Below the pieces are notes generated by a model. The model was not told where the DNA came from. It did no database searches and saw only the letters and a program-made list of their open reading frames with translations. From Sphingomonadales bacterium (GTDB lineage: Bacteria; Pseudomonadota; Alphaproteobacteria; Sphingomonadales; Sphingomonadaceae), in the NCBI GenBank assembly GCA_017309275.1, contig JAFKLT010000068.1, forward strand, positions 1-47,793: DNA of 47,793 nucleotides. The letters run 5' to 3'. Shown piece by piece: positions 3,481-42,250 of the stretch. Each line of letters starts with the position of its first letter. The first letter of the stretch is position 1. A program made the position numbers and the translations under genes.

Positions 3481-4394
3481 TCAAACTTGCCAAAGTGGCC
3501 GCTGCAGCCAGTTCGCGGGAAAACCCATCGATCGTATATCGCCCTCGGGATGGGTCGCGATGTGCGCCGCCACATCGGCAAGCCAGGTCGAGTCCGGCGC
3601 CACGGTATTGATGACGTGGCCGATCATGCAGATGCCGTTGTAAAGCTTCGCCGGTGCCTGAGTGGCATTCTGGTCGATGGTCGCCTGTAGGGATTTGGGC
3701 TTTTGCGCGAGCTTCGGAGGCGTAAGGAAGCCCCGGTTCCACAGCCGGCCGTGATGCGCGCAGATATTACGGATGTCGGTCACATGGCGGACCAAGGGCA
3801 CGAGAACGGTCTCCGGAAGACCAAGGGGCGCGGCGATGCGCGTTCGAAGAGCGCGGTCTGCGAGGCTCGAATACCAGCGCGAAAGGTGACCGAAGGACAT
3901 CATTTCTGCGACCATCCAGACCGGCGGCAATGCTGGCAGATCGTAGTTTTGCCGATAATGCTTGATATAGGTCTCGTTCGAACGCCCCACTTCGCCAGCC
4001 AGTTTCGAGAGGCGAAGGTGATAGTCGGTGCGGTCGCTATAAAGACTGGCGTCGAGATAGCTGTGTCCATCGCCAAGCCCAGCCAGATGATAAGCCCAGC
4101 TTCCGCGCAATGCCACTTCGACATGCTCGGTGCCGCGCATCAAGAGGCGCCGGAGTAGCCGATCGAAATCATAGAGGGCGGTGACGCGTTCGAATGTCGT
4201 GCCCGGAAGGAAGCGCGGCCCCGCCTGTCCCTTCGGATGTTCGAAATAGAGCCAGTAGGCGCTCAGCGGTAGTAGCTCACATGGCGGAGCCACGCCTCGG
4301 CCGCCGGCTCGTCGGCAACGATCATGCCGTTTGCCCGGAGGTGAGCGATTTGCTGCGTGTAGGTGAGAGTCGGTTTGGAATAGGCGCGTGACAT
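3481..4394 (-). pseudogene. Abi_2 family HEPN protein, frameshifted
   Basis: An AbiD/AbiF-type abortive-infection protein split by a one-base deletion. The natural ATG at 4394 gives the family N-terminus (SKPTLTYTQQIAHLRANGM, then RHVSYYR) but hits TGA at 4263-4265, after 43 residues. The rest of the family sequence (LSAYWLYFEH onward) continues in the next frame to the stop at 3481. Adding one C near 4266-4268 would restore SYYRLSAYW. The catalytic HEPN motif RNICAHH and the following GRLWNR are intact, so the break looks recent, or it is a sequencing error. A longer frame starting at 4407 yields a nonsense N-terminus and should not be used. Intact members are predicted RNases acting in phage defence. 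Confidence 0.85.
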
Positions 4395-4422
4395 TGACCG
4401 TCGTCATGCGTCAATGGCGCCC

Positions 4423-4622: not shown

Positions 4623-5549
4623 TCAGGCCGTCGGAATACGGGCCTCCAACTCGGCAACGCGCTCCGAACAGATCGCATGCACCGCGCGGCCGAGCTCCTC
4701 AACATGCGCAGCGAGCCACAGCAGGTCCGCCTCGCCGATGCGATAATGTTTCGAGTAGCGGGCCTTCACATAAGCCTCCTTCAGCTTCTCGAAGCGTGTG
4801 CGATCAGCCTTCAACGTGCGAGGCCACGCATCCACCAACCGCATATCGATCCGTTCCGCCTGCGTTCGCAGGAACCCGAGGTTGTGCACATGCGGTGTGT
4901 AGAAGGTGCATACCAACAGGACGCAATGATAAAGGCTCTCCGCCGCTTGATGAAGAACGAATGACGCCTGCTTGAATGCGCCTTCGGCGCGTCCTGCCTC
5001 ATGCATTTTGAAGAATGCGTTTGCTTGAGGCATCCACTCCTCAAAATATTCCTTCGCCATCGCCAACGCCTGCTCAGGCGTCTTCGGCTTCGGCGTGTGC
5101 AATTCCTTATCGTCAAATTCGTAGAGCGCGATCCCGTCGCGCGCGACGTCCATGAAGAAATAGCGCCCGTGCGCCAGCCCGTCGTTCACCTCCTGCAGGG
5201 TGTGAACGATGAAATTCACCGGCGTGTGCAGTGTCTTGTCGATCGCAAGTTCGCGGGTCAGCCGGTCTTCGAGCTTCGACCAGAAGTCGATCTTGTCGGT
5301 GAGGCGCTTGTCGTTGACGATGATCAGCAGATCGAAGTCCGAGCGATAGCCCTTCGCCGTGTGCGGCTCGTCGACCCAGCCGCCGCGGGCATAACTTCCG
5401 TAGAGGATGACCTTGTCGATCCGGCCCTTCTTCTTCCAGCCCATCGTCGAAAGCGCGACGGCATCCCCGAATTCTTCGAAGATGATCGCCTTCACGCGGT
5501 CGAGCTCGCGCTGCTTGTTGGCCGGGAGATGATCGAGATCTGTACGCAT
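4623..5549 (-). CDS. Fused nucleotidyltransferase-HEPN protein
   Basis: A 308-residue protein joining a minimal nucleotidyltransferase to a HEPN domain. Residues 46-80 carry the polymerase-beta signature: GSYARGG (51-57) followed by SDFDLL with the metal ligands D71 and D73. Residues about 165-295 are an all-helical HEPN-type half, with the AAESLYHC segment, THxL-like HNLGFL, and KARYSKHYRI near the end. As separate genes, HEPN toxins and MNT antitoxins form toxin-antitoxin pairs in which the MNT modifies the toxin; here both are in one chain. The start at 5549 follows GAAGGAACG. It is last in the minus-strand block, 65 bases after the DUF2493 gene. Confidence 0.85.
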   Translation of the reverse strand: MRTDLDHLPANKQRELDRVKAIIFEEFGDAVALSTMGWKKKGRIDKVILYGSYARGGWVDEPHTAKGYRSDFDLLIIVNDKRLTDKIDFWSKLEDRLTRELAIDKTLHTPVNFIVHTLQEVNDGLAHGRYFFMDVARDGIALYEFDDKELHTPKPKTPEQALAMAKEYFEEWMPQANAFFKMHEAGRAEGAFKQASFVLHQAAESLYHCVLLVCTFYTPHVHNLGFLRTQAERIDMRLVDAWPRTLKADRTRFEKLKEAYVKARYSKHYRIGEADLLWLAAHVEELGRAVHAICSERVAELEARIPTA

Positions 5550-15524: not shown

Positions 15525-15779
15525 AAACGGGCGGTGTGCAGCCGGAATAGATCCAGAAGCGGGTCCGATTGTCAGACCCAAGCCCTTTACCCGGATTATC
15601 AACCTGTTACATCTCGCTGACCGATCGATCGCCATGCGCCGGGCTGCGGGAACAGCGGTCGGACAGGGCGTGAGGACCCGTCGGAAATTCCCCCGTTCGC
15701 CCGCGCCGAAATGGAAAAGGTTCGCGGCGATAGTTGGAGCGGACCGCAGGCGAGCGGGTCGGGAACGCGCCGGCGGCCG

Positions 15780-16541
15780 ATGAACGATGTGAAGCATTAT
15801 CAACTGACAGAGGAACTCGCACAGGAATTTACAGGAGCAGACAGAGAAGAGCAGCTCTTTGCCGCACTGACCAAGGCTGCGGGCCGAATGGGGTTCGACC
15901 ATTTCGCGCTTGCTTTCGATCGGCGCGGAACCGGCGAACCGGCGTCGATTCTCGTGCACAATTATCCCGACGCCTGGGCCAAGGTCTATGTCGGCTTCGA
16001 TCTCAGCGGAACCGATCCGATCCGCCGCGCTAGCGAGCGATCGCTGACCGGCTTCGAATGGCGCCACGTCGATCGCTATATTCCGCTGAGCCGCGGCGAC
16101 CGCCAATTGCTGTCGGTGGCGCGCGATAGCGGCGTCGGTGACGGCTTCACGGTTCCTCGCCATCTGCCCGGCGAGGCATCGGGAACCTGTTCCTTCGCAG
16201 TCCGTCCGCACGCGGACATTCCGGCGGACATGCTCCACGCCGCCGAAATCCTCGGCGCGATCGCCATCGCTTCGGCGCGTGAGTTGATCGGCTCCTCTCC
16301 TTTACGGCCACGCCCGATACTTACCGAACGGCAACGCGAATGCGTGCTCTGGTCGGCGCGCGGCAAGACCGCCGGCGAGATCGCCGATATTCTCGGGATC
16401 AGCGAAGAGACGGTCGTGCGCCACCTCAAGATGGCGCGCGAGCGCTATTCGGTGCATTGCCGCTCGATGCTGATCCTGTGCGCGCTGTTCGACGGGCTGA
16501 TCGGCTTCTCGGACATCTACGACTGGTGGCGCCCGAACTGA
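15780..16541 (+). CDS. luxR: LuxR-family quorum-sensing regulator
   Basis: A 253-residue acyl-homoserine-lactone receptor/regulator. Residues about 10-165 form the autoinducer-binding domain (DHFALAFDRRG, YPDAWAKVYVGFDLSGTDPI, GDGFTVPRHLPG, with the family Trp and Asp positions). Residues about 180-245 are the LuxR helix-turn-helix (LTERQRECVLWSARGKTAGE, then ETVVRHLKMARERY). It is immediately upstream of luxI on the same strand with a palindrome between them, which makes it the cognate receptor by position. The ATG at 15780 has only a weak ribosome site; an earlier start at 15711 would add a basic, non-family N-terminus. Confidence 0.92.
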   Translation: MNDVKHYQLTEELAQEFTGADREEQLFAALTKAAGRMGFDHFALAFDRRGTGEPASILVHNYPDAWAKVYVGFDLSGTDPIRRASERSLTGFEWRHVDRYIPLSRGDRQLLSVARDSGVGDGFTVPRHLPGEASGTCSFAVRPHADIPADMLHAAEILGAIAIASARELIGSSPLRPRPILTERQRECVLWSARGKTAGEIADILGISEETVVRHLKMARERYSVHCRSMLILCALFDGLIGFSDIYDWWRPN

Positions 16542-25635: not shown

Positions 25636-27342
25636 TCACTCCCAATATCGGGCCCAATTCTCTGCGGCGACGAATGTGAGGATCCTGTCGATGCGATCCG
25701 TGCCGCGCCAGCTTGGGTCTTCGGGTGTGTCAAGAAGAGCAAGATCCAAGATCCCCGACTCCGCAAGGATCCCGCCGCGTAGGCGATCGTGGAGCGCAGA
25801 TCGGTGGGCGCGATAGATCGACAGGTGAAAGTCGCCAGGTCCGCCCTTTTGTGTTCGCGCGGTGATCAACTCCGGTAAACATCCCTCGAATGCTTTTCTC
25901 GCCACAGCGCGATTCTGTCCTCCGGCGATCCAATCCCAAGTCGGGATCGCAAGACAGGCTTCGATGATCGGCTGCGACATCAGCGGGGCAATGTGGGGAG
26001 GCATCGTCGCGCGCGGATAAAGCTCGATGCCCTTCTGCGCTCGCATCAGAAATGCGGCGTGTACAGTCTTCCCCGGAAGAATGTCGTCAGGCGCATCGAG
26101 CCAGGGGTGGGAGGCGCCCTCCGCCCTGATCTTTCGTCCGACTTCCTTTCCCAGGCCCGCAAGATTGATGAGAGGACTATGCCGCCCTCGATTTCGTCGA
26201 TAGCGGTCCCAGCCGTGCTTCAAGACGGTCTTGGTATCGGCTCCGGTCAACAGGGTGAGATCGTAAAGGGTGGACGCGAGGGATGGCCGCGGACCTTCGG
26301 CCAGAAGCCGATCAATAAAGGGCACAGCGCTTCGTACACCACAAAGGATGCCGTCGCCGCCATTGCCGGAAAAGAAGGCATCGACGGGTAGTTGGCCGAG
26401 CAAGCGCCGATGGATCGCCTCATTGGTCTGCTTGTAGAGCGGAGCAACGGGCCAAGGATGATGTGGCGCTGCCGAGACGGTGACGTCAATGTCTTGCAGC
26501 TCGCGATGCTCCTCGATCAGCAGCGTGCCGATCGACTCTGCAAGCGCCCGGGCGTACCTGCGCTCATCTCCATCGAAATCGGGGCTCACCAGATTCAGAC
26601 AGGTCAGCCTCTTGGCCATATTCGCTGCCGAGGCCGCAACAATCGAGGAGTCGAGCCCGCCCGACACGCCGACCATGATCGAGGGGAAGCAGGTAGCCCA
26701 CGCTCCGACGCAGTCCGCTATCGTGCGCCTCAATGCGTCAGCCATATCGTCGGCGCCAAGGCCGGAACTGGCGACATGATCCCAAGGCGACCAATATTGC
26801 TCGGTCCGTAATTCACCCTTGTCGATGACCAGGCATTCGCTGGCGATCAGTTCTTCGACGTCCGATACACATGTCCGTCGCCCCCGAAGATCGCCACCCG
26901 CCAGGATGCGAGCGATCTCATCGAGATTTGCCGAACCAGGGGCGGGGTTAGCGAGGTCAGTAATCGATCCTGCAAGCGTCACGCGGCCGCGATCGCGGCG
27001 GACATAGCAAGGAAGAAGTCCCGATGGATCGCGAAATATCCGTACCGCACCCCCTGGGTCGGCATGGACCATGACGTAACCGCCCCAATATTGCCTCAGC
27101 AGCCGTTGCGCATCATTGGCCGCAAGACCATCGCCCTCGCCGACTTCAAAAGCCTCGACCCGGCGGCTGGGTGGGCCTCTCGTAAAAAGATGACCGATGA
27201 TGACGGTCCGAGGAGGCACTGCGATTGCCGGTTCGGCGGTCCATATCCTCACGCCAGATATTTCGAAAGTCGGCGGTCCCTGCTGCTCCGGAGCCTGACG
27301 GTTGGTCGACATCTCGACCTCAATTCGAAACCCGCCTTTCAT
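25636..27342 (-). CDS. Lasso peptide cyclase (C protein)
   Basis: A 568-residue asparagine-synthetase-like enzyme that activates the side chain of Asp/Glu at core position 9 with ATP and closes the macrolactam ring with the amino group of Gly1. The N-terminal glutaminase-like part (about 1-190) lacks the nucleophilic Cys2 of true asparagine synthetase. The synthetase part has the ATP-binding SGGLDSS at 227-233 and GNGGDG further on, and ends FVAAENWARYWE. The ATG at 27342 overlaps the stop of the B gene by one base (TGATG). A start at 27312 (MSTNRQ) with an upstream GAGG is a real alternative. Confidence 0.9.
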   Translation of the reverse strand: MKGGFRIEVEMSTNRQAPEQQGPPTFEISGVRIWTAEPAIAVPPRTVIIGHLFTRGPPSRRVEAFEVGEGDGLAANDAQRLLRQYWGGYVMVHADPGGAVRIFRDPSGLLPCYVRRDRGRVTLAGSITDLANPAPGSANLDEIARILAGGDLRGRRTCVSDVEELIASECLVIDKGELRTEQYWSPWDHVASSGLGADDMADALRRTIADCVGAWATCFPSIMVGVSGGLDSSIVAASAANMAKRLTCLNLVSPDFDGDERRYARALAESIGTLLIEEHRELQDIDVTVSAAPHHPWPVAPLYKQTNEAIHRRLLGQLPVDAFFSGNGGDGILCGVRSAVPFIDRLLAEGPRPSLASTLYDLTLLTGADTKTVLKHGWDRYRRNRGRHSPLINLAGLGKEVGRKIRAEGASHPWLDAPDDILPGKTVHAAFLMRAQKGIELYPRATMPPHIAPLMSQPIIEACLAIPTWDWIAGGQNRAVARKAFEGCLPELITARTQKGGPGDFHLSIYRAHRSALHDRLRGGILAESGILDLALLDTPEDPSWRGTDRIDRILTFVAAENWARYWE

Positions 27343-27983
27343 CAGACGGCGAAGATCGGTCGATAGTGGAGAACCATGTCCAAGGAGTCGGTCAGGACGG
27401 TATCGCCGACCTGAACCCAACTATGGGCGGCGAAGGGCATGGTGACGCCAAACACAAGCGAGGCTGCCACGCCGCGGCACCCAAGCATCCGTGCCATGGC
27501 AATGCCGCGCACGAGGCATTGGTCATCTGATGACATATAGCGCTTGGCGCGAACGAACGCGGCGGCGATTTCGCGGCAATCGTCCGCACTGGATGGCGCC
27601 AGTCGATCCGACCTGCGTCCCAGGCCGGTTACAATATCGGAAAGAGACTTGTTTTGAAGATCGCGGCGGGCTCGTCGCTGCTCCCAGATACAGAATATTG
27701 TCGTCGCCATAGAAGCCTTGGCGGTCGGCTCATCAACGAGACTGCGCGCAGCCAGCGGTGGAAGGATTGCAGGCGCAGGTTTACCGGTTTCATCGTCGGC
27801 AAGAAGGCCGAGGTCACGCAGATGATGTTCATCCGCAGACGTCCCGCCACCGCTCAGCACTCGGCCAAACTGTTCCGCTGATTGATCGGTGAGAAGAAAA
27901 TAGCGGTCGGCGGAGAGATCGAACAAGACGAAGCCACTGTCAAACTGACAGTAGTGCAGGCCCGATCGCAGCATGGCGGACAT
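27342..27983 (-). CDS. Lasso peptide leader peptidase (fused RRE-B protein)
   Basis: A 213-residue fusion of the two B-type functions. Residues about 1-75 are PqqD-like, the RiPP recognition element that binds the leader (HYCQFDSGFVLFDLSADRYF). Residues about 85-213 are the transglutaminase-like cysteine protease that cuts leader from core, with C156 in SSDDQCLVRG, H187 in AAHSWVQ and D199 in LTDSLDMV. A longer frame starts at 28034, but that ATG lies inside the A1-B hairpin; I chose the ATG at 27983, which matches the usual short lead before the RRE. No good ribosome site is visible at either. Confidence 0.88.
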   Translation of the reverse strand: MSAMLRSGLHYCQFDSGFVLFDLSADRYFLLTDQSAEQFGRVLSGGGTSADEHHLRDLGLLADDETGKPAPAILPPLAARSLVDEPTAKASMATTIFCIWEQRRARRDLQNKSLSDIVTGLGRRSDRLAPSSADDCREIAAAFVRAKRYMSSDDQCLVRGIAMARMLGCRGVAASLVFGVTMPFAAHSWVQVGDTVLTDSLDMVLHYRPIFAV

Positions 27984-28010
27984 TTCGATAATTGCGCGGG
28001 GCAATGCGAA

Positions 28011-28038
28011 TGGCGTGCCGCATGCGAGCGGCACGCCA
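28011..28038 (-). terminator. A1-B intergenic hairpin (attenuator)
   Basis: TGGCGTGCCGC-ATGCGA-GCGGCACGCCA forms a perfect 11-bp stem with a 6-nt loop right after the A1 stop and before B. No T-run follows. In lasso operons such hairpins keep precursor mRNA in excess over the enzyme mRNA; here that role is inferred from position. Confidence 0.8.
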
Positions 28039-28739: not shown

Positions 28740-28917
28740 AAATTACAGCAACTACGCCAGAACTTCTTTTTCTACGCCAAGGCACGAAAAAGCAAGCTTT
28801 TGTTGACTTCAGCCTACGATATTCTATCCTCGACCTACCCTGCGAAGCGGTGAATTTCTATTACGTCCTTATTACTTTTCGAATCTGCCACCCTCGCGTA
28901 ATATGATGGAGGAACTT

Positions 28918-30186
28918 GTGGCGCTTGCAAAGCTCAATAAGCGGACGGTCGATGCGCTGGCTGTACCAGCGACAGGCCAGGCGTTTCTTTGGGATACCGA
29001 GATCAAGGGTTTCGGTGTCCGTGTCGGCGCAACCGGGACGAAAACCTTCGTCATCCAGTATATGAATGAGGAAGACCGGGTTCGGCGAGTGAAGATCGGG
29101 CGCTTCGGCGTGATGACGGTCGAACAAGCCCGCGAGCTGGCAAAGATTCAGCTGGGCAAGGTCGCCTCTGGCGAAGATCCCGCAGAGGAGTCGCGTCGGG
29201 TCCGGAAGGATCTCAACGTCGCCGAGATGTGCGAATGGTATCTCGTCGAAGCGCGAGCCGGCCGCATTCTTGGACGGAAGAACCGCCCGATCAAGGACAC
29301 CTCGCTCAACATGGACGAGAGCCGCATCCGGACGCACATCATCCCGCTGATGGGCAAACGCCTCGTGCGGAAGCTGACGATCGCCGACGTCGAGGCCATG
29401 CAGAATGACATCGCCACGGGTCAGACCCGAAAGCCTCCCTCGGGCGGGCGCGGCGGCCGACCGACGGGCGGCGCCGGCGTTGCCGGGAGGAGCCTCGGCA
29501 CCCTTCAGGCCATTCTCGGCCACGCAAAGCATAAGGGGCTGATTGCAGAGCATCCCACGAAGGGCGCGAAGAAGCTCGCGACCAAGAAGAAGACCCGGCG
29601 TCTCAGCATCGCCGAGATCGAGCTGCTGGGCCGGGCGATCGGCCGGGCCGAACTGGGTTCCGAGAACCCCGTTGCGCTTGCCATCGTGAGAACGCTGCTT
29701 CTGACCGGCTATCGGCGGGAAGAGGCGCAGGCACTGCAGCGGCAGTGGGTCAACCCAATGGGCGGTTACGTCGCGTTCCCCGACACGAAGAGCGACGCGC
29801 AATATCGGGCGATTGGACCCGAGGCGATCAAGATCGTCGTCGCACAGCCCGAAATTGCCGGCTGCCCCTACGTCTTTCCCGCGTCGAATGGCGAAGGCCC
29901 GTTTACCGCCGTCAGCGACTGCTTGGCCCGGCTATGCCGCTCGGCCGGCATTGAGGGCGTGACGCCGCATACCCTGCGCCACACCTTCGGGAGCATGGCG
30001 GGCGAACTCGGCTTCTCCGAGCTCACGATCCGCGCGATGCTAGGCCACGCGTCGCAAAGTGTGACGCAGGACTATGTTCATATCGATGAAGCCGTGAAGC
30101 TGGCGGTCAGCCGCACTTCGGACGAGATCGCAAAACATCTCGAGACTGGCGTGAGGAAGGCGTCAAAGATGAAGTTCGCCGCCTGA
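28918..30186 (+). CDS. int: Tyrosine integrase with Arm domain
   Basis: A 422-residue phage/ICE-type tyrosine recombinase. Seen: the DUF4102-like arm-binding N-terminus (FLWDTEIKGFGVRVGATGTK, RRVKIGRFGVMTVEQAREL), a core-binding domain, and the catalytic set R in TGYRREEA, K in PDTKSD, H-x-x-R in HTLRHTFGS, H in MLGHASQ, and the nucleophile Y in QDYVHID. I chose GTG 28918 because GGAGG sits six bases before it; ATG 28903 is possible. It lies 180 bases from the tRNA-Gly fragment, its probable target, and its stop abuts that of the next, convergent gene. Confidence 0.93.
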   Translation: MALAKLNKRTVDALAVPATGQAFLWDTEIKGFGVRVGATGTKTFVIQYMNEEDRVRRVKIGRFGVMTVEQARELAKIQLGKVASGEDPAEESRRVRKDLNVAEMCEWYLVEARAGRILGRKNRPIKDTSLNMDESRIRTHIIPLMGKRLVRKLTIADVEAMQNDIATGQTRKPPSGGRGGRPTGGAGVAGRSLGTLQAILGHAKHKGLIAEHPTKGAKKLATKKKTRRLSIAEIELLGRAIGRAELGSENPVALAIVRTLLLTGYRREEAQALQRQWVNPMGGYVAFPDTKSDAQYRAIGPEAIKIVVAQPEIAGCPYVFPASNGEGPFTAVSDCLARLCRSAGIEGVTPHTLRHTFGSMAGELGFSELTIRAMLGHASQSVTQDYVHIDEAVKLAVSRTSDEIAKHLETGVRKASKMKFAA

Positions 30187-33100
30187 TCAGGGCGGCGAAC
30201 CGTCGCGCGCTTCCATTTGCTCGAGAAGCTGCACTCCGATGATCTCCAAATCGGACTTGCCGATATCGGCAACTCTCCGGATCGAGAGGTCATGCTTTAG
30301 TATGGCAAGGTCCATCATCAGATCGGGCTCACCATTCTCCTTCACATAAGTGGGAACCAGAATGAACGAGCCACCCGCGGGATAGTTATCGAGAAAAAAC
30401 CTCAGATTCGTGTCGGCGGCAGGTTCGAGCAGCTTGAGGCGGCTCGGCATGCTCACCAGCGTACCAGCGAAATCCCCTGGCTCGGTTCCCGCCATCAATA
30501 GCACCGCATAGTGGGACGGGGGCCGACCAGGTAGTTCGCGCAAGATCGCGATGTGGATAGCCCCTTCGACATCTCGTGCGCCGAACCGCTCGCGCCAACG
30601 CTCGAAAATTTGGCGTCCCGCCTCGCGATCCTCAAAATGCAATCCGACGATCGGGAGATCATGCTGCAGACCGAGCATCACGCCGATCCAGCGGGCCTGC
30701 TCCCATTGCGGAATGTCCAAGATCGAACGCACTTCGACGCTGCGGTGATCGCCAGTCGCGTATCGCTCGCTGATTGTTTCTTCTTCGGGATCAGCCTCTG
30801 GCACCCGTACAATTACCGGCCGGTCGGCCTTCGGCGGAAACCGCTCGAGCGATAGCTCGTTCCAGTCCGTCAGTCGCGACGCTGGACTGTTCATCGCCCG
30901 GATACGGCTGTTCGAACTCGCGACTGCGGCGCTGACGCGCTCAAGGAGTGATTCTTCCCGAAAAAGCTTCTCCAGAGATATTTTTTGCCGGTCCGCGAGT
31001 GAGGTCGCGACGAGCATCAGCGTCGAGAGAAGCAGGAATTGGCTATGGGTTCCGCTCTCACCGAGATGATCGGCGGGTGTCGATCCGGCAGGCCAATGAA
31101 GTTTGGCGCGCATGTTATTGCCATCGAAATCAACGCTCGGTGCCGTGGCAACATCGCTTTCCACGAGATCGATATCAAAGCGCTCGACGAATGCTCCGAT
31201 CCGCAGGCCGATAACCGTAGCAAACAGCGTGTCGATAACCGCCAGCAGGGTTTGGCCGGCGAGCAGCGCTGTGTCGCTGCCCGATAGATGCACCGCGACG
31301 CGCATGCCGATAACGCGGGTCTCGATGCTGTGCGGTTGCGGGCTGCCGGTAACCAGCGGCCGACCACCGAGGTCGCCCGCTGGCTGGTTGGCCGCGCGCG
31401 CGAACATGCCTTCGAGTCCCCCTTCCGGCTCCTCCTCGGGCTGACGTTCGCCCAGGCGCTCCGCATAGCCCAAGGCGTAGAGAAGCGCGCCGCAGGACAT
31501 AGGCAAACCAAGGCGTTCCAGAACCGTCGGGAGGCCCGCCATCACCTCGAAGTCATCGGCCGAGCTGTTGAGAAACTGGCAAGTGAGGACGCCATCAAAT
31601 TCCTTCAACCTCTCGTCGACGCGAACCTTCGAAGCGTCGTCGAGCGGCAGCAACTTTCGGCAACCATTCACCATCCGGATCGCGTCGAGCGCCTCGGGCA
31701 GCAGCCGCAACTCGATGTCGATCCAGATGAGGAGCATCAACGCGGGAACGAGGGTAACCGACGGATGGCTATCGTGCTCCGAATCCGCAATTATCGATGC
31801 GACAGCAAACAGCGCCGCGGCACGAGCAGCCCAGAGCGTGCCGGTGCCCCGATAGGCGACCGCGAGCATGTAGCTCGCTTCGATGAGCTCTTCCGCATAT
31901 TCGCGCTTGGTGAGCTGATGCGTGGCCCGTCCGAGTAGTCGAATTATCTCAAGGCGGTCGGCATTTGTGTCGAGCCGCCGCGCCCTTCGCAGCAGAATAC
32001 GTCCACTCTCGCCTTCGCCGACCCGCTTTCCCATGAAGGCTGCGAGCTTGTCGACCAGTTCACCATAGGCCGGATCGTTCCCGGCAAGCGGCCCCACCTC
32101 CTCGATCAGCTGCGAGAGCCGCTCCGCATCATATTCAGCGAGCCCCGACGCGGCTTCGAGGATAGCTTCGACTTCCTGCCAAAAGGGGGAGATTTCGTCG
32201 CGTCGGTCGAACGCAAGGGAGGTGATCTCGAGCATTAGCGAGGTCGTGCGCGCTTCGAGCGCATTGTTGGGACGGTCTTTCTGACCCGCCAAAAATTCGA
32301 GGCGAGCGACCAGCGCGGACCGGCGTTCCAAGAGGCGAACCTGTTCGGCTGAACGATAGCCCTGTGCGACCGCCGTAATCAGGCACTGCAGAAGGTTTGC
32401 AAGGCGTTCCGCGTGTCGCGCCGCGGGCGAGCCAAGCGCGAGTTCGGCGAACGCGTCAAATTCGCGGTCCAGGAGGTCAAAGTCGTCGAACCAGTAGAAG
32501 GCCGTCCATAGCCGCTGATAGCGTGCTTCGATCTGCTGGCTGAGCAGACCATGTTGATCGGCGATGCGGATCGCCCGTTCAAATCGCCCATGGGTCTCGA
32601 AAGGCGGCCGCTCCAACTCCTTCGAAAGCGTCGCAGCGAGCAGGGCGTCGGTCACGCGCTGCGCCTCGATGCCGGCATAAGCGGCCGGGTCCTGGATTTC
32701 CTTCTCCAGATCTTCGAGCTGCTGCGACCGCGCATAGTCAGCTGGCCCGACCCGCGCCTTCTCGTTTCGCTTCCCGACTCCGAGATAGTCGACAGCGATA
32801 TCCTGATTTCCGTGCGTCAGAACCCGGTCTATGATCCAGCTCCGGTCGAATATCTCGACGCGAAAGCCGAATTTCTCGGACAGCTCATCCTGAATCTTGG
32901 CGACATCTTTGGAGCGGCCGTAACGCGAGGTGGCGATGAACACCTTTGTATAGGGACGCCCCGTCGCCGCGATCCCCTCGATGTCCGATCGCGCCTTCTG
33001 CTGCCACTGCTTTTTCGCGCTGAAAGCAAACGCCCAGCGCTCGCTTCCCGAGTTGGCCTCGCCTACATAGTGAAGTGTCGTAATCTCGTCGGAGACCGCA

Positions 33101-33393
33101 AAGGTCTCACTGTCGGCCTTGCTGTCGCCACCGCCCTCCGGGCCCGTCGCAGGCTTCAGATTCTTGCAGACGATGCGCTCGCAAAGCTTGCGGCAGAAGA
33201 TCTCGAAATCATGGGTCTCGTTGCGCGCTGTGACATACTCGAGGCGCTGCTCCAGCTCATAGGCTTCGAGGATGAAGGCAGGCTCGGACCCGCTATCGGA
33301 AAACTCGTCAGGTCTCAGCTGGCGCATGAATTCCGAGGGAAGGATGGCGCGTGTGGCCGCAAGCTGATCGGCCGAATCGTCGGGCTGGTCCAT
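30187..33393 (-). CDS. Large nuclease-TPR protein, candidate defence gene
   Basis: A 1068-residue cytoplasmic protein I do not recognise by name. Residues about 60-170 look like a PD-(D/E)xK nuclease: FEIFCRKLCERIVCKNLKP, then GGGDSKADSET (D90), then WAFAFSAKKQWQQKA (K127/K128) and a helix-strand ending VFIATSRYG. Residues about 230-700 are helical and repeat-like, in the manner of TPRs, and the rest is a mixed alpha/beta region. This is the plan of many anti-phage proteins, a nuclease joined to a large sensor. It is next to the integrase and has a LexA-type box directly upstream. The function is inferred from fold and context. Confidence 0.65.
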   Translation of the reverse strand: MDQPDDSADQLAATRAILPSEFMRQLRPDEFSDSGSEPAFILEAYELEQRLEYVTARNETHDFEIFCRKLCERIVCKNLKPATGPEGGGDSKADSETFAVSDEITTLHYVGEANSGSERWAFAFSAKKQWQQKARSDIEGIAATGRPYTKVFIATSRYGRSKDVAKIQDELSEKFGFRVEIFDRSWIIDRVLTHGNQDIAVDYLGVGKRNEKARVGPADYARSQQLEDLEKEIQDPAAYAGIEAQRVTDALLAATLSKELERPPFETHGRFERAIRIADQHGLLSQQIEARYQRLWTAFYWFDDFDLLDREFDAFAELALGSPAARHAERLANLLQCLITAVAQGYRSAEQVRLLERRSALVARLEFLAGQKDRPNNALEARTTSLMLEITSLAFDRRDEISPFWQEVEAILEAASGLAEYDAERLSQLIEEVGPLAGNDPAYGELVDKLAAFMGKRVGEGESGRILLRRARRLDTNADRLEIIRLLGRATHQLTKREYAEELIEASYMLAVAYRGTGTLWAARAAALFAVASIIADSEHDSHPSVTLVPALMLLIWIDIELRLLPEALDAIRMVNGCRKLLPLDDASKVRVDERLKEFDGVLTCQFLNSSADDFEVMAGLPTVLERLGLPMSCGALLYALGYAERLGERQPEEEPEGGLEGMFARAANQPAGDLGGRPLVTGSPQPHSIETRVIGMRVAVHLSGSDTALLAGQTLLAVIDTLFATVIGLRIGAFVERFDIDLVESDVATAPSVDFDGNNMRAKLHWPAGSTPADHLGESGTHSQFLLLSTLMLVATSLADRQKISLEKLFREESLLERVSAAVASSNSRIRAMNSPASRLTDWNELSLERFPPKADRPVIVRVPEADPEEETISERYATGDHRSVEVRSILDIPQWEQARWIGVMLGLQHDLPIVGLHFEDREAGRQIFERWRERFGARDVEGAIHIAILRELPGRPPSHYAVLLMAGTEPGDFAGTLVSMPSRLKLLEPAADTNLRFFLDNYPAGGSFILVPTYVKENGEPDLMMDLAILKHDLSIRRVADIGKSDLEIIGVQLLEQMEARDGSPP

Positions 33394-35589: not shown

Positions 35590-36806
35590 CGCCCATCCGC
35601 CTGCGGCTCGAGAATGAGGTCGCGGGTGACGATCACGCGGAGCGCGAACCCCGGGCGAATGGTGAGCGTCGGGCGAACGGCGAGCTCGCGCTCGACGATG
35701 CGGCGTCCGGCCTGACTCGTGCTGTCCTGCATCCCGTAGCGCAGCGCCCGGGCGAGTTCGTCGTCGCCGCCGACGCTAAGTTCGCTTCCGACCCCGAGCA
35801 GGGTCGAGACGAGCGCGGCCCGGACCATCCGGCCCCAATGATTGTTCACCCTGTCCTCGAGCCCCGACATGCCTGCGGCGTCGGCGCCGGGCTGGCGTTC
35901 GAGGCGGATCGATCGTCCTCCGGGAAGGATCAGGCGATCCCATGCGAGGAGCATCCGGCTCTGACCCGCCGCGATCTCGCTGTCATATTCGCCGATCAAC
36001 CGCGAGCCCTGCGGGATGAGCAGGATGCGCCCGGTCGGACTGTCGTAGACATTCTGCGTTACCTGCGCGCTGATCTGGCCTGGCAGGTCGGAACGAATGC
36101 CCGTGATGAGCGCTGCCGGAATCACGGTCCCGGCCTGAACGATCAGCCCGGAGCTCGGCGTGATCAGCCGCTCGGCGCTTTCGAGGGGCTTTTTCGGCCC
36201 CGACGCCAGAAACTGGCGCCGCCCCTCACTGACCGTGCGAGGCTCCGCCGCCTGCTCGGGCTCGGCCGCCGTAGCGGGCACAATGTCTGTTGCTGCGGAA
36301 CTTGTGGTTCCGCCTGCCAGAAAGAGCCGGCTCGTCTGGGCGCTCTCACGCTCCTGCATGGCACGCTGCCGCGCCTGCTCGGCCGCGGCCTCGCGCGGGT
36401 CGGGAGGCGCGCCCGCCTCTGCTCCGATCGGCGGCACGGGGATGGCATCGCCGCCTCCCTGCGCCGCGACGATCGGCCGGCCAAGGTCGCCGGGGAGCGG
36501 CGGGCCAAGCTTGGGCACGGCGCCGTAGTCGGCAGGCGCCCCGGTGACCGCGTCGGGCCGCGCATTGTTGCTCGCCTCGTATAGCTCCTGCCGCTCGGCC
36601 GGGGCCGGCGTGCGTAGCGCCCACATCAGCGATGCCGCGATCGCGATGCCGCCGGCACCACCGATGACCGCCAGCGTTTTGCGCGACAGACGCATGACCC
36701 GCGGCGTCTCGCCCGCGAGGCGGAACGCATCGGGACTCGCGGGGGCGATCGGCGCTACGTCGGCCTCGGGCACTGCCTCGGCGCCGGGCTGGTCGGGCGC
36801 CGTCAC
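35586..36806 (-). CDS. trbI: Conjugal transfer protein TrbI (VirB10-like)
   Basis: A 406-residue type IV secretion component that links the inner and outer membranes. One membrane helix is at about residues 44-63 after a short cytoplasmic tail, followed by a Pro/Ala/Gln-rich periplasmic stretch and the VirB10 domain at about 190-400: GTVIPAALITGIRSDLPG, YDSPTGRILLIPQGSRLIG, LLAWDRLILPGGRSIRL, NNHWGRMVRAALVSTLLG. Length is normal. It overlaps trbG upstream and DUF2274 downstream by 4 bases each, the usual trb order. Because the rest of the operon is absent here, the element probably cannot transfer by itself. Confidence 0.94.
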   Translation of the reverse strand: MTAPDQPGAEAVPEADVAPIAPASPDAFRLAGETPRVMRLSRKTLAVIGGAGGIAIAASLMWALRTPAPAERQELYEASNNARPDAVTGAPADYGAVPKLGPPLPGDLGRPIVAAQGGGDAIPVPPIGAEAGAPPDPREAAAEQARQRAMQERESAQTSRLFLAGGTTSSAATDIVPATAAEPEQAAEPRTVSEGRRQFLASGPKKPLESAERLITPSSGLIVQAGTVIPAALITGIRSDLPGQISAQVTQNVYDSPTGRILLIPQGSRLIGEYDSEIAAGQSRMLLAWDRLILPGGRSIRLERQPGADAAGMSGLEDRVNNHWGRMVRAALVSTLLGVGSELSVGGDDELARALRYGMQDSTSQAGRRIVERELAVRPTLTIRPGFALRVIVTRDLILEPQADGR

Positions 36807-37639
36807 GACCGCCCTCGCGGGCGCGGCGTTTCGCGTTCGATCCGCACGGCCTTGGCGCCTCGCCCGCTGCCGAGGCGAAGTTCGGCGCGATCGAAGAGGC
36901 GGTCGACGATCATGTATCGGCCATCGACGCGGTAGTTGAGCAGTTCCGCCGCGCCCTTCTCGCCGATCGCGAACAGCGGGGGCATGTCCGCGGTTGCGAT
37001 CGCAGCGCCAAACTCGACGAAGAGCTGGCGGCTATCGTCAAAGACCCGCACCGGCCGCCAAGGGACCTTCGCGCCCGAGATACGATAAGCAAAGCTCAAC
37101 GCCGCGAAATCGATGCCGCCGGCAACCGGAGCGAGCCGCGCCTGTTCGGTCTCGGCGGCGCGAAGCGCGATCAGCTCGTCCTGCGGGTAGGACCAGGAGA
37201 CCGCCGCCATATAGGTGGCGGGCGTCGCGCGCAGCTCGATGTGATAGGTCCGACGGCTGGTGTTGATGACCAGATTCGTCATGATGTCGGGGCGCGTGGG
37301 CTTCACCAAAATATGAACGCGGCGCGACGCGCCCGTCCCGCTCACCGTATCGCCGATGACCCAGCGCACCGTGTCGCCGGCCGCGACCGGCCCCGGACCG
37401 ACAAGCTCCTCGCCTTCCTGCAATGCGATGTCGGTGACCTGTCCGGGGGCGGTATAGACCTGGAACAACGCGCCGTCGGCCCATGCATATTTCTGGATGG
37501 CGTTGAGGAAGGTCGCGCGCTCGGGCTGGACGCGCGCCGCGTCGTTCGCGCGGCCGACCTGCGTGCGCGGATCGGCGGGTGCGGCCTGCGCTGGCAGCGC
37601 GAGCGTGGCGGCGCCGATAAGAAGGGTAAGGCGGATCAT
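36803..37639 (-). CDS. trbG: Conjugal transfer protein TrbG (VirB9-like)
   Basis: A 278-residue periplasmic/outer-membrane core component of the trb type IV secretion system. A signal peptide (MIRLTLLIGAATLALPAQA) precedes the VirB9/CagX domain: YAWADGALFQVYTAPGQVTD, LQEGEELVG, VHILVKPTRPDIMTNLVINT, RTYHIELRA, FDDSRQLFVEF. The ATG at 37639 overlaps the stop of the trbF remnant (ATGA); the frame is open upstream but codes noise. It overlaps trbI by 4 bases. Confidence 0.93.
   Translation of the reverse strand: MIRLTLLIGAATLALPAQAAPADPRTQVGRANDAARVQPERATFLNAIQKYAWADGALFQVYTAPGQVTDIALQEGEELVGPGPVAAGDTVRWVIGDTVSGTGASRRVHILVKPTRPDIMTNLVINTSRRTYHIELRATPATYMAAVSWSYPQDELIALRAAETEQARLAPVAGGIDFAALSFAYRISGAKVPWRPVRVFDDSRQLFVEFGAAIATADMPPLFAIGEKGAAELLNYRVDGRYMIVDRLFDRAELRLGSGRGAKAVRIERETPRPRGRS
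36807..36807 (-). other. trb operon coupling point
   Basis: The three stop/start overlaps at 37636-37639, 36803-36806 and 35586-35589 show that the surviving trb genes are still translationally coupled, which argues for recent decay of the operon rather than old scatter. Confidence 0.4.
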
Positions 37640-37767
37640 TGGCTGAGCTCCTTCGACCAAGAAATGGGCATCACCGCATAGCCTTTTGTCGTTTCGATAA
37701 GGACGATGATCGTCATCATCGTGCGGGCGAGGCTCCAGCCGAGCGATTGAGCGGTGGAAAGCGGCAT
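37636..37767 (-). pseudogene. Remnant of trbF (VirB8-like), 3' end only
   Basis: A 43-residue frame ending KGYAVMPISWSKELSQ. The last residues resemble the end of TrbF, which normally closes with a YVxxIxWxxEL-type motif, and the 4-base overlap with trbG is the normal trbF-trbG arrangement. The N-terminal 200 or so residues of TrbF and all upstream trb genes (trbB-trbL, expected on the right) are missing. The break lies between about 37700 and 37840. The short N-terminal part from ATG 37767 (MPLSTAQSLGWSL) appears to be foreign sequence joined by the deletion. Confidence 0.6.
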
Positions 37768-38049
37768 GGGTTTGGCTCCTGTCCTTTCGGAGCGGGACCG
37801 TTCCCGCTCGACAGTCGCCCCGCCGGCCGGGGGCGGGCCGCAATCACCGCAGCAAGGCTGCGGCCGCACGCGAAGCGTAGCGGACCCTTCACGGGTTGAT
37901 TGAAGGAGGCCCGGCTCCGAGCCCAGGGACCAGCGGCTATCGAGAGCGGGTACGGTTTCGCGGGGGAGAGGCCCTCACGCCTTCCTCCCGGACCATAATC
38001 TGCGTGCCCCGTCGCCCCGGTGTGCGCGAAGAACAGGGAGAATTATCGG

Positions 38050-38964
38050 ATGTCAGGTCAGCAAAGCGAGTTCGGATATTATCCGCGGCCGCTCGATATC
38101 ACGGTTGGACCGGTGTCGATTGCGACCCGCGATGGGCTCGACGATATGGTGAAGAGCGTCAACGAGGACGAATGGCGCGAGGGCAAGTGGATATATTCGC
38201 CGTTCAGGGAGGTTTCCCACCTCGGCGGGGGGCTTAACACCCGCCCCTATCCCGCTCGGGTTTTCAGTCTCCCGAAGACCCACGACATCACCCATGCCAC
38301 GGCGCCGGACCTCGACCAGGTGAACTTTCATGTGTGGAGCCTGTCGTTCTTCAAGGGAATGCGGTTCACGATCACCGAGGCCGGGTTTCTTGATTCGACG
38401 CCAGTCGAGCCCGATGTCCTCGTCGACTTCCTTCTGCTGGGTGGCAGCCTGGAGAAGTCGATCGAACTCGCGGAGGCATTCTGGATCGACAATCTCGCAG
38501 TGCCCGAGCGAGCGCGCATCTGGGTCGCCGCAGTCCATGCCCTGTTCCTGAGTCAGAACCCGCAGCATCTACAGTTCGAACGCTTTCTGTATCTTTATAC
38601 CGCGCTCGATGCCTGCTTTGCACTTGCGAAGTCTTTGAACCCTCCGGCAAGGAATTTGTCACATGGGCAGCGCATCGCCTGGATGTGCGACTGGCTCGGG
38701 GTGCCGGTTCCGGCATGGGCCGATCCGGCTGCAGCGGGCGGGGTAGAGGTGGCGGCGATGCGCAATCCGATGATCCACGAAGGCCTCTACATGGGCGAGC
38801 CGCTCGGCTTTGCACTTCATGGCGTAGGCGGGGGGCCAAACCTCACCCTCGAAATGTCCGGCTTGGTTTCCCGGCTGCTCGTCGCGCTCCTCGGCGCGCG
38901 AAACAATCGCTATATAACCAGTTCCACCGGCACCCGCCAAAGACAGGGGCTCGACCTTGGCTAA
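38050..38964 (+). CDS. HEPN/ApeA-like protein
   Basis: A 304-residue protein with a mixed N-terminal half (WIYSPFREVSHLGGG, NFHVWSLSFFKGMRFTIT) and an all-helical C-terminal half with the HEPN signature RNPMIHEG (R238, N239, H243, R-x4-H) near its end and FLYLYTALDACFALAKS before it. This architecture resembles ApeA-type predicted RNases. It begins a tight three-gene operon; AGGGAG lies seven bases before the ATG. The next gene starts inside its last three codons. I infer an RNase effector; the N-terminal half may sense the trigger. Confidence 0.7.
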   Translation: MSGQQSEFGYYPRPLDITVGPVSIATRDGLDDMVKSVNEDEWREGKWIYSPFREVSHLGGGLNTRPYPARVFSLPKTHDITHATAPDLDQVNFHVWSLSFFKGMRFTITEAGFLDSTPVEPDVLVDFLLLGGSLEKSIELAEAFWIDNLAVPERARIWVAAVHALFLSQNPQHLQFERFLYLYTALDACFALAKSLNPPARNLSHGQRIAWMCDWLGVPVPAWADPAAAGGVEVAAMRNPMIHEGLYMGEPLGFALHGVGGGPNLTLEMSGLVSRLLVALLGARNNRYITSSTGTRQRQGLDLG

Positions 38965-39808
38965 ACCTGCAAAGACAAAAGCGCCCGCCTATGAGCAGCG
39001 CCTGATCCTGTTTCTCGACTTCCTGGCCTTCAAGGAGGTGGTGGCCGAGACCGAGCGCGACGCGACGGCGCTCGAGCGCCTCGTCGCGGCACTCGACGAG
39101 GTGGGCCAGACGGTCGAGCCTGGCCTTTCGAAGAGCGAGCGCGTCACCCAATTCTCGGATTCGCTCGTCCTGTCCTACAAGGTCGAAGAGACCTCAGCAG
39201 TCTTCTGGATGATCGATGCGATCGCCCGCACCGTCGTGCTCCTCGCCGATCGCGGCTATCTGCTGCGCGGCGCCGTGACGGTCGGGAAATTGCTTCACGA
39301 CAAGCGGCACATTGTCGGGCCGGCAATGGTCAAGGCCTATGAGCTGGAATCGCGCACCGCATGCTTTCCCCGCGTGATCGTCGACCGCGAGGTGCTCAGG
39401 ATGGCGCGCACCTACAGGCAACCGCAGCATTCGGGGCCGCAGGAAGAGCGCTATGTCCGGTCCTTTCTGGATGAGGACAAGGACGGCTGGCTGTTCATCG
39501 ACTACCTCTCCTGGGACAAGGTGGTCGAGGCCATGGGCTGCGAACATGACGCCTATCCGGACTATCTCGGCCGGATGGCACGGTTGATCCGAAAGGGGTT
39601 GAAGCATGCCGACCCGCGTGTCGCGCGCAAATATCTGTGGCTGCGCAAGCGCTTTCTCAAGGCGATGAAGCCCTATCGGGACCTTCCCGCCAATAAGGTG
39701 AACGATCCCGATTTCTGCGCGGCGATCGACGCGCTGCCGCGAATGCGCAAGCGCGCCCGCAAGGCGCGGAAGCGCGTGAAGGCATTCGACGCAAAGGCAG
39801 CTGCGTGA
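38957..39808 (+). CDS. Predicted nucleotide-cyclase-like protein
   Basis: A 283-residue protein whose first 150 residues follow the class III nucleotide cyclase fold: ILFLDFLAFKEVV (D21, as in the hFxDxxGF strand), VTQFSDSLVLSY (D68, as in the GD hairpin), LRGAVTVGKLLHD and IVGPAMVKAYELES (as in the GIHTG and GxxVNxAxRLE segments). Both metal-binding aspartate positions are present. The C-terminal part is basic (KRARKARKRVKAF). The start is TTG 38957 with AGGGG upstream, overlapping the HEPN gene by 8 bases; it ends overlapping the third gene. Whether it makes a cyclic nucleotide is inference. Confidence 0.6.
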   Translation: MAKPAKTKAPAYEQRLILFLDFLAFKEVVAETERDATALERLVAALDEVGQTVEPGLSKSERVTQFSDSLVLSYKVEETSAVFWMIDAIARTVVLLADRGYLLRGAVTVGKLLHDKRHIVGPAMVKAYELESRTACFPRVIVDREVLRMARTYRQPQHSGPQEERYVRSFLDEDKDGWLFIDYLSWDKVVEAMGCEHDAYPDYLGRMARLIRKGLKHADPRVARKYLWLRKRFLKAMKPYRDLPANKVNDPDFCAAIDALPRMRKRARKARKRVKAFDAKAAA

Positions 39809-40923
39809 TGGAGCCTCAAGGTGTCGCGGGAAGCGACGGCAAGGCCGCGGCACCGACCGCCAAGGCTGCCCCGGCGGTCCCCGAACGCCAGCATCCATCC
39901 ATCTTCCACTATCCGATCGACGCCTGCGACGTCAGCGACAAACCCTCGCTCGAAGCGTTTCGCGAGAAACTCCAGCATTGGTCCGAGCTGTTTGAGCGTG
40001 ATCCCGACGCATCGCTCGCCGGGCAGTTCGCCGACATGATGTGGTTCGACATAGCCTGGCGCACGGCGAATGAGGCGCGGCAGTTCGCTGATGACGACGG
40101 CACCCGCGGCTCGACCGCGCCGCTGATCGCGATGATGCTCGACCGCGGCTATCTTGCCGGACAGGTCATCTCGATCACCCGGCTGCTTGAGAAAGCACCT
40201 GCGAACCAGCCAAAGAAGGCCGTGATCTCACTCCCGCGGATCGTCGACGAGATGCGCGCGGCGCGCGAGATTATGACGCGCGAGAATTTCGTGTGCCGCG
40301 ACGCGCTGCCTTATGACTATGAAGCCTTGCTGGCGGCGGAGCTGGAGCGGCTGTCCGCCGAAATGGCGGCCAATCCGAACAAGGCGCGGCGGGTGAGCCT
40401 CAGCCTGTCGGGACCCGAAGGGTTCGATCAGGCGCGGAAGGAGCATGAGTTGTTCGACCTGTTGTCGGGGGTCGCTCCGGAAAATCGGGCGCGCGGCGAC
40501 CTGATTGGCGAGGCCTTTTTCGACCGGCTGGACGAGTTGCTCGCGCGGCCGCCGCTTCCCGAGATCAAGGCGCTGCGCAACAAGAGCATCGCGCATGCGG
40601 CCGACGCTTTTTCGCGCGCGCAGGCGAAAGGGCTCCGGTCAGGCCTCACCATTCACGATCTCGACCGCGCCCATTATCTGCTGTTCGCGGTATTCCAGAC
40701 GCTGTCGGTCGTGCTGTTCGGCGTCTGGCGCGCCTCGCCCGTCCCCGTTCCGCAGCACAATATGTTCGAACATCTCACCGAGCCGTTTCTCGCCGGGAAG
40801 CGGCTCGAGGCGATGCGCGCCTTCTGGGACAAGCATATCGGCGAGCGCGAAGGCTGGATGAACGACGCTTTCCGCGAGGTCGTACCCGATCCCGCAAAGG
40901 CCAAAGCCGGAGACGGAAGCTAA
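39808..40923 (+). CDS. HEPN AbiU2-like protein
   Basis: A 371-residue, mostly helical protein. Residues 30-80 (FHYPIDACDVSDK, FADMMWFDIAWRT) and 105-130 are hydrophobic helices. Near residue 257 it has ALRNKSIAHAAD, a HEPN R-x5-H motif (R257, N258, H263) of the AbiU2 type, followed by LDRAHYLLFAVFQ. It starts at ATG 39808, sharing one base with the previous stop. HEPN proteins of this kind are predicted RNases of abortive infection. It is the last gene of the operon; the next gene, 80 bases on, belongs to metal resistance. Confidence 0.72.
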   Translation: MEPQGVAGSDGKAAAPTAKAAPAVPERQHPSIFHYPIDACDVSDKPSLEAFREKLQHWSELFERDPDASLAGQFADMMWFDIAWRTANEARQFADDDGTRGSTAPLIAMMLDRGYLAGQVISITRLLEKAPANQPKKAVISLPRIVDEMRAAREIMTRENFVCRDALPYDYEALLAAELERLSAEMAANPNKARRVSLSLSGPEGFDQARKEHELFDLLSGVAPENRARGDLIGEAFFDRLDELLARPPLPEIKALRNKSIAHAADAFSRAQAKGLRSGLTIHDLDRAHYLLFAVFQTLSVVLFGVWRASPVPVPQHNMFEHLTEPFLAGKRLEAMRAFWDKHIGEREGWMNDAFREVVPDPAKAKAGDGS

Positions 40924-40981
40924 ATCCCACTCCGTTGGCAACCCTGCTTTCCGAGCGACGCCGCTTGCCTTTTTGCTCTAG

Positions 40982-41287: not shown

Positions 41288-42250
41288 ATGGCCACTACCC
41301 CCATTGCGGACGCGCGTGTCCACGATCATATGTTCTTGGGCGCGTCACATGACGAGAATGCCCGGCGCACGCTGCTCGTCGTCGTTTTGACCGCGCTGAT
41401 GATGGTCGGCGAGATCATCGCCGGCTACATCACGGGATCGATGGCGCTGCTCGCCGACGGTTTCCACATGGCGACGCATGCTGGTGCCCTCGGCGTGGCG
41501 GCGATCGCTTATGGTTATGCGAAGCGCAATGCGCACAACGCGGCCTACAGCTTCGGAACCGGCAAGGTCGGCGACCTCGCCGGCTTCGCCTCGGCGATGG
41601 CGCTCGGGCTTGTTTCGCTCGGCATCGGTGTCGAAGCGGTGTCGCGACTGTTCAATCCGACCAACGTAGCCTTTCTCGAGGCGACCGTCGTCGCGGCGGT
41701 TGGCCTTGGCGTAAACATTGCGAGCGCGTTCCTGCTGTCGGGCGGGCATCATCATGGTCACGGGCACGGACATCACCATGGTCATGATCATGGCCATGGT
41801 GACGATCATCATCACAACCATGGCCCAATGGCGCAGAGCGGGGATAATAATCTGCGCTCGGCCTATGTGCATGTGCTTGCCGATGCGTTGACGTCGGTCC
41901 TCGCCATCGCAGCCCTGCTTGCGGGTCGCTATCTCGGATGGGTGTGGATGGACCCCGTCATGGGGATCGTCGGCGCGATCGTGATCGCGCGCTGGTCGTG
42001 GAGCCTTATGCGCGACACGGCCGCGGTCCTGCTCGACCGGAGCGACGATCATGTGGCGGAGGAAGTCCGCGAGCTGGTCGAGGCGCCCGGCGATGCCCGG
42101 ATCGTCGATCTTCACGTATGGCGCCTTGGACCCGACGCGCATGCCGCGATCGTCAGCGTCGCCGGGCCTGCCGGTCTCACTGGCGCGGCGATCCGCGAGC
42201 GCCTCGCGCCGGTCCACGAGCTGCGTCACGTCACGATCGAGTGCAACTGA
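41288..42250 (+). CDS. dmeF: Cobalt/nickel efflux transporter DmeF (CDF family)
   Basis: A 320-residue cation diffusion facilitator. The N-terminus has HDHMFLGASHDENARRT, typical of DmeF, and the membrane part has the metal-site motif LLADGFHMATHAG and later HVLADALTSVLA. A histidine-rich loop (positions near 152-180, a run of HHHGHGH-type repeats) separates helices 4 and 5, and the cytoplasmic tail ends in VHELRHVTIECN. It exports Co(II) and Ni(II) by proton exchange. It is paired with the RcnR-like gene 10 bases upstream. Confidence 0.93.
   Translation: MATTPIADARVHDHMFLGASHDENARRTLLVVVLTALMMVGEIIAGYITGSMALLADGFHMATHAGALGVAAIAYGYAKRNAHNAAYSFGTGKVGDLAGFASAMALGLVSLGIGVEAVSRLFNPTNVAFLEATVVAAVGLGVNIASAFLLSGGHHHGHGHGHHHGHDHGHGDDHHHNHGPMAQSGDNNLRSAYVHVLADALTSVLAIAALLAGRYLGWVWMDPVMGIVGAIVIARWSWSLMRDTAAVLLDRSDDHVAEEVRELVEAPGDARIVDLHVWRLGPDAHAAIVSVAGPAGLTGAAIRERLAPVHELRHVTIECN

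Follow-up and report, generated by a model that had tools for sequence, protein, structure and literature searches.

The window, as we call the whole 47,793-nucleotide stretch analysed here (contig JAFKLT010000068.1 of the Sphingomonadales bacterium assembly GCA_017309275.1), carries a cassette of three genes, A, B and C, which is best read, with a probability of about 0.57, as a stack of separable anti-phage modules that can be exchanged, occupying a cargo site in an integrative conjugative element. Separable modules are favoured because A, B and C each occur without the others and because S. italica carries A and C with no B between them; the presence of other HEPN-type genes in the same window was also counted for this reading.

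All three genes lie on the forward strand. Gene A (38050..38964, +; ATG start, 304 residues) encodes a protein of the phrog_5937 family with the C-terminal HEPN motif RN-x3-H-E (R238/H243), and gene B (38957..39808, +; TTG start, 283 residues) a class III nucleotidyl-cyclase-like protein with conserved D21 and D68. Gene C (39805..40923, +) encodes an AbiU2-like HEPN protein of 372 residues from GTG 39805 or 371 from ATG 39808, the latter being the start from which its motif residues R257 and H263 are counted. A and B overlap by 8 bases (38957..38964, +), and the stop of B overlaps the start of C within GTGATG (39805..39810, +), by one base with the ATG start and by four with the GTG start; the GTG is the likelier start, because S. 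italica has GTG-ACG at that position. These open reading frames (ORFs) agree with the overlaps of 8 and 1 bases given in the initial annotation, which had been made from the letters alone.

Across genomes, A, B and C are as a rule free of each other, though not always single genes. Gene A was examined at 59 loci, 58 of them confirmed by profile; these are not all independent, several viral loci being near-copies, and a short A remnant in a fourth phylum genome (L182), unconfirmed by profile, is excluded from the 58. Outside the window, the complete trio was found at a single one of these loci, in Sphingopyxis terrae. One locus carries A and C without B (S. italica), two carry adjacent A and B without C (metagenome-assembled genomes, MAGs, of Roseitalea and Roseibium), one (G056) has A and a distant B within a single island, and 53/58 carry A without B or C within the stretches examined. 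The initial annotation had proposed one three-gene second-messenger system and had set a neighbourhood check as its refuter; with recurrence at 1/58 A loci, the trio was rejected as a fixed system.

The same pattern holds in each collection surveyed. Neither B nor C accompanied A at 19/19 viral loci, at the four plasmid loci examined (of six records), at three of three phage records examined of four (one just 2.6 kb), at the single Escherichia coli locus examined, in 2/3 class-search and 3/4 phylum-search genomes, or at 21 of the 25 loci recovered by a genome-contig scan with the A alignment; a scan of viral contigs with the single A sequence gave no useful match. Sampled frequencies were low: with the window's own genome counted, A occurred in 4/385, B in 13/385 and C in 5/385 class genomes, and A in 5/349 phylum genomes. 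Scans within the genome's own family (149 genomes each for A, B and C) recovered only the own genome, and a search of the order of genome G095, which holds two genomes, gave no useful match.

Relatives of B occur on 50 plasmid records, and the four regions examined among them lack A and C. Two viral-contig scans returned 25 and 33 B loci in overlapping sets; A and C were absent from 25/25 loci of the first and from 31/31 newly numbered loci of the second (many on the same contigs), and likewise from 11/12 class-search regions. Among the B loci examined, A was in the same stretch only in S. terrae, Roseitalea, Roseibium and G056. In G056 the distant B stands ~930 bases upstream of the distant A, and the gap holds a DUF6650 gene (L035 8296-8811, -). 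One B-family gene is located between hsdR and hsdM of a type I restriction operon (L046 7040-7789, -), and another relative adjoins a HaeII endonuclease gene (L089). C was found without A or B at 5/5 loci examined for it, namely a Sphingomonas plasmid (47% identical), a viral contig, G079 (twice) and a short contig of G238. Searches of the phage collection with B and C gave no useful match. No same-strand ORF of >=80 residues lies within 40 bases of the gene at 31/47 A, 21/37 B and 3/6 C loci.

Natural alleles of the cassette show how its parts vary. The S. terrae proteins are 97% (A), 100% (B; 99.6% unrounded) and 95% (C) identical to those of the window by tblastn, and the two DNAs are 95% identical over 7.3 kb, which suggests that the window comes from a Sphingopyxis. 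In S. italica, A and C are 85.9 and 91.1% identical to the window proteins, and a 57-base spacer occupies the place of B; the obligate co-production that the initial annotation drew from the overlaps is not supported by this allele. Between the S. terrae and S. italica loci, identity over the initial 6.9 kb is 95% overall, but the A proteins are 87% identical, and the region is thus a mosaic. The three genes are under purifying selection: in comparisons with S. terrae and with S. italica, the ratio of nonsynonymous to synonymous change (dN/dS) was 0.09-0.12 for A and 0.10-0.12 for C; for B the sole comparison, with S. terrae, gave 0.03, with 1/283 residues differing. Synonymous divergence was 0.06 for B, 0.14 for A and 0.20 for C, and recent exchange of B may have occurred, because its value lies below those of its neighbours.

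The most likely role of A is that of an RNase of abortive infection that needs no partner; we infer the RNase activity from its motif. The sequence RNPMIH (R-x4-H, R238/H243) has R238, N239, H243 and E244 invariant in 36/36 aligned rows (A and 35 relatives, window included). A lone R-x4-6-H proves nothing; because the motif residues are invariant across relatives, the HEPN reading of A goes beyond chance. The rows were drawn from examined loci, including 6/19 viral A loci, with L036 (partial), L059 and the other 13 viral loci omitted; the A gene of L059 is frameshifted in its MAG, and its pieces were kept separate. A raw R-x-H pattern was tried as a HEPN test for neighbouring genes and dropped, as it fires in many unrelated ORFs. 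A matches phrog_5937 with an E-value (E) of 3.2e-76. PADLOC, NCBIfam and Pfam gave no useful match to A, only sub-threshold chance matches, and a PDB profile search returned a single chance match (E 1). Domain-library scans recognised no nucleotide-sensor domain in A, and no hydrophobic stretch of membrane-span strength was found in it. Relatives of A occur as single genes in three records of P2-like coliphages or prophages (L122, L123 and L124), flanked there by the portal gene and the replication-endonuclease gene, whereas A of the window itself adjoins conjugation genes; the coliphage type was matched in 90/5426 E. coli genomes, with one locus examined.

Gene C would be a second, independent AbiU2-like HEPN RNase, again judged from motifs. 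Its sequence RNKSIAH (R-x5-H, R257/H263) retains H263 in 7/7 and R257 in 6/7 rows, window included, with Ala replacing the Arg in L038; the partial relatives L021-L023 and L048 were left out of this count. Both HEPN motifs were found at the residues first assigned to them and are conserved to this extent. The AbiU2 model PF18734 matches C with 20.2 bits (E 0.00044), below its cut-off of 26.8, and the best-matching stretch is residues 103-187, with the motif outside it. A PDB search with the C profile gave no useful match, and three windows of borderline membrane-span strength were found in C (maximum 1.79).

B is, by profile comparison, a class III cyclase homologue that keeps both metal positions without the usual Asn/Arg pair. 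Over 138 columns, a profile of 36 B proteins aligned with a set of 18 genome-derived PF00211 cyclase domains (hhalign E 4.9e-6, probability 86). The A and C profiles gave E >0.5 against the same domains, and the lowest value among 40 column-shuffled B profiles was 0.12; a smaller, earlier B alignment gave E 1.7e-4. The comparison covered PF00211, not GGDEF or mCpol. A PDB search with a 22-row B profile returned eight matches, each weak (E 0.4-2.2), seven of which were adenylate cyclases, and the B sequence alone matched nothing there. With E allowed up to 0.1, PF00211 matches none of 22 B-family members, nor do these members have any recurring Pfam model in common, and no NCBIfam model explains B of the window or five relatives; for B, too, the domain libraries gave only chance matches below threshold. 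B matches phrog_23933 (E 3.1e-25), and it belongs to a family that is unnamed in the curated protein libraries searched.

The metal-region residues D21 and D68 are each present in 36/36 B-family rows, window included, as are L23, F25, G105 and K225, while R104 and E131 occur in 35/36 and R139 in 32/36. Class III cyclases carry the motifs D-x-x-G-F and G-D-A and a helix D-x-V-N-x-A-x-R-x-E-S, also visible in the compared PF00211 domains, and their Asn and Arg are transition-state residues. B has counterparts in the same order (F-x-D-x-L-G-F, F-S-D-S and P-A-M-x-x-A-Y-x-L-E-S). The Asn-equivalent position is V125 in B of the window (V 13, N 10 and I 8 across the 36 rows), and the Arg-equivalent position is E129, with Arg in just 2/36 rows. 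The window sequence reads LDFLAF where the other 35/36 rows carry Gly. Near-copies and L089 were left out of this alignment, and B copies with stops (L006/L049 and L014/L050) or split (L030) were left unmended. The cyclase-like assignment of the middle protein accordingly stands for its profile homology and both Asp positions, and fails for the Asn/Arg pair, which is not conserved.

Under the stacked-module reading, the N-terminal part of A, acting as a sensor, would keep the HEPN nuclease at the C terminus silent as long as the cell is uninfected; on infection the HEPN domain, presumably dimeric, would cut host or phage RNA and the cell would stop. C would act as a second, independent RNase of the same kind. 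B would be an optional, divergent cyclase-like protein that binds metal and probably nucleotide; at loci with B immediately behind A, it may modulate A by way of a nucleotide.

Several observations weigh against the stacked modules. Contig L060 ends 143 bases past A, and the A gene of L036 is truncated next to a transposase-like ORF, so that a lost B is possible at both loci. A close same-strand ORF was called at 16/47 A, 16/37 B and 3/6 C loci by simple ORF calling, which miscalls L052 and L059 and of whose close ORFs some belong to the pairings among A, B and C described above and some are likely spurious; among the neighbours, a 940-residue HD-CE/HATPase gene overlaps A in L064, and a 355-residue gene with a sub-threshold MTES_1575 match starts 21 bases past A in L067. 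B follows A directly in two distant lineages, the window with S. terrae and Roseitalea with Roseibium, and the A-linked B proteins form, with one unlinked viral B, a well-supported five-row clade in the B tree. Because A is followed by B in two lineages and these B proteins cluster, the linkage exceeds what a random stack would lead one to expect. In addition, the literature searched, as far as its text was available, described no test of A, B or C for protection against phages.

This linkage is what makes A–B a plausible signalling pair and the most interesting of the surviving alternatives. In such a two-gene second-messenger system C would be a passenger, B would sense infection or be constitutively on, and its product would either switch A on, in a Pycsar-like manner, or hold A off, in a Panoptes-like manner. 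Gene order and near-zero spacing (-8 bases in Sphingopyxis and +3 in Roseitalea/Roseibium) are kept in two groups whose B proteins share no more than 52-54% identity, the A-linked B proteins cluster as described, B has cyclase homology with both metal Asp residues intact in 36/36 rows, and even the distant A and B of G056 lie ~930 bases apart. Another palm family, mCpol, is coupled to HEPN RNases as well, if less frequently, according to the portion of PMC12657218 available to us. Against signalling stand the 54/58 A loci without B in the stretch examined, S. italica included, where A seems not to need B; the Asn/Arg positions, V125 and E129 in the window and variable in the family; the lack of a recognised nucleotide-sensor domain in A; and the A tree, whose starred branches require that B was gained or lost at least twice. 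That tree omits L036 (partial) and 13/19 viral A loci. The B of G056 lies far from the five-row clade, on a long branch, and the Roseitalea and Roseibium loci, 88.6% identical over 8.2 kb, may represent one mobile element, because of this identity and because, by their names, they come from one study. As judged by these comparisons, A and B became linked long ago or more than once, and not obligatorily, and a two-gene signalling system is a possible but rather unlikely explanation of the locus. Slightly more doubtful is the extended proposal that B is the founding member of a widespread but unnamed family of class III cyclase-like enzymes borne on mobile elements, with altered catalytic residues, that A and B form an immune pair in which the product of B gates the HEPN RNase, and that C is an RNase added in Sphingopyxis.

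An antidote function for B, blocking or modifying a HEPN toxin A by toxin–antitoxin logic, is improbable. The tight coupling of A and B and the position of a nucleotide-handling family beside a HEPN protein would suit it, and HEPN-MNT offers a precedent, in which, in the part of the literature covered, a nucleotidyltransferase modifies the HEPN toxin; yet A is found without B at 54/58 loci, S. italica included, and is therefore tolerated without it, and B occurs without A in prophage-like contigs and on plasmids. Very improbable is an obligate second-messenger system of all three genes, in which a single cyclase would control both HEPN effectors to bring about abortive infection, since the overlapping genes and the near-identity of B to its S. 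terrae counterpart (1/283 residues, dN/dS 0.03) are set against recurrence at 1/58 A loci outside the window, the existence of A with C but not B and of A with B but not C, and a low synonymous divergence by which part of the identity of B may stem from recent exchange.

Stacked modules at a cargo site agree with the surroundings of the cassette. It is adjoined by a CagX (TrbG-like) conjugation gene (36803..37843, -), a TrbI gene also lies beside it, and a tyrosine integrase gene is present at 28903..30186 (+). Near the left end of the window, at 3481-4407 and 4623-5549 (both -), are an Abi_2 gene and a fusion of a Polbeta nucleotidyltransferase with a HEPN domain. This gene content supports the view, already taken in the initial annotation, that an integrated element, its boundaries unmapped, holds the cassette as cargo together with further defence-like genes. 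The sequence that the window shares with S. terrae and S. italica starts at a sharp junction, 37664, inside the CagX ORF, and because the shared sequence begins there the upstream side differs between the loci; the S. terrae upstream proteins resemble, by eye, other genes of conjugative elements, and the gene before A in Roseitalea encodes a RovC DNA-binding domain (PF10074).

The three genes are probably co-transcribed. Gene A has a second open start, a GTG 30 bases upstream of the ATG. A scan for sigma-70-like promoters found none, and a weak terminator-like stem with a T-run follows C after 29 bases (40952..40967, +), from a scan whose count was near chance (4 found vs 2.4 expected, sd 1.6). 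The GC content of A, B and C (0.61-0.65) is close to that of the window (0.64). Elsewhere in the window, adjacent asparagine-synthase-like and transglutaminase-like genes lie beside the integrase (25636-28034, -), a pairing as in lasso-peptide clusters, and a 1068-residue ORF also beside the integrase (30187-33393, -) has no Pfam or PADLOC match. A LuxR-type regulator gene is at 15711-16541, and the tRNA-Asn that ARAGORN placed inside a cation-efflux ORF (41584-41671, +) is probably spurious.

Both A (phrog_5937) and B (matching phrog_23933) represent unnamed PHROG families spread over phages, plasmids and islands, and the natural alleles with and without B are suited to testing cyclase-like control of a HEPN RNase. 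Should B turn out to produce a signal, it would count as a cyclase whose catalytic residues are non-canonical; otherwise it would be a nucleotide-handling protein of defence or counter-defence.

Comparison with known systems places the locus near several of them. Even with E allowed up to 5, PADLOC matched none of the three proteins, and ten relatives were likewise without a match, in agreement with the initial failure to assign the trio to a named system. PADLOC holds models of Pycsar, in which a pyrimidine cyclase is paired with a transmembrane or TIR receptor; besides lacking a match to these, the locus has no TIR Pfam match and A no membrane-span stretch. With class III cyclases (PF00211), including PycC, B shares 138 aligned columns containing the metal Asp regions, and it differs in the unconserved Asn/Arg, in conserved residues of its own (R104, G105, R139 and K225) and in its neighbours with HEPN motifs; PycC cyclases themselves have two catalytic Asp residues (PMC11224242). 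The likeness to Panoptes, which combines mCpol with a membrane effector (PMC12657218), is a small nucleotide enzyme beside an effector-like gene. A, however, has no membrane-span stretch, unlike an OptE-type effector with two transmembrane segments (2TM), and B matches class III cyclases, the mCpol profile not having been compared; for A–B we found no evidence of decoy signalling as in Panoptes. Defence systems with HEPN domains and one with DUF6650 have been described (PMC13092281), and among the literature matches listed, whose supplements were not covered, neither this trio nor a pair of a class III cyclase-like and a HEPN protein was described.

C shares the R-x5-H motif with AbiU2 (PF18734; PMC3710099) and differs from it by a score below the curated cut-off and by a matching stretch without the motif. 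In the 2013 survey of HEPN families, as far as its text was available, the family Bxe_C0808 is listed as 'in operon with AbiU2' (PMC3710099); this layout resembles that of A and C and is a precedent by layout alone. For A, the closest setting is that of the P2-like phages. The parts of PMC9122126 and PMC9519451 covered, which did not include supplementary tables, give no sign that the A family was tested, and they describe the site between the portal and replication genes as the tin/old defence hotspot, the very site that the coliphage relatives of A occupy.

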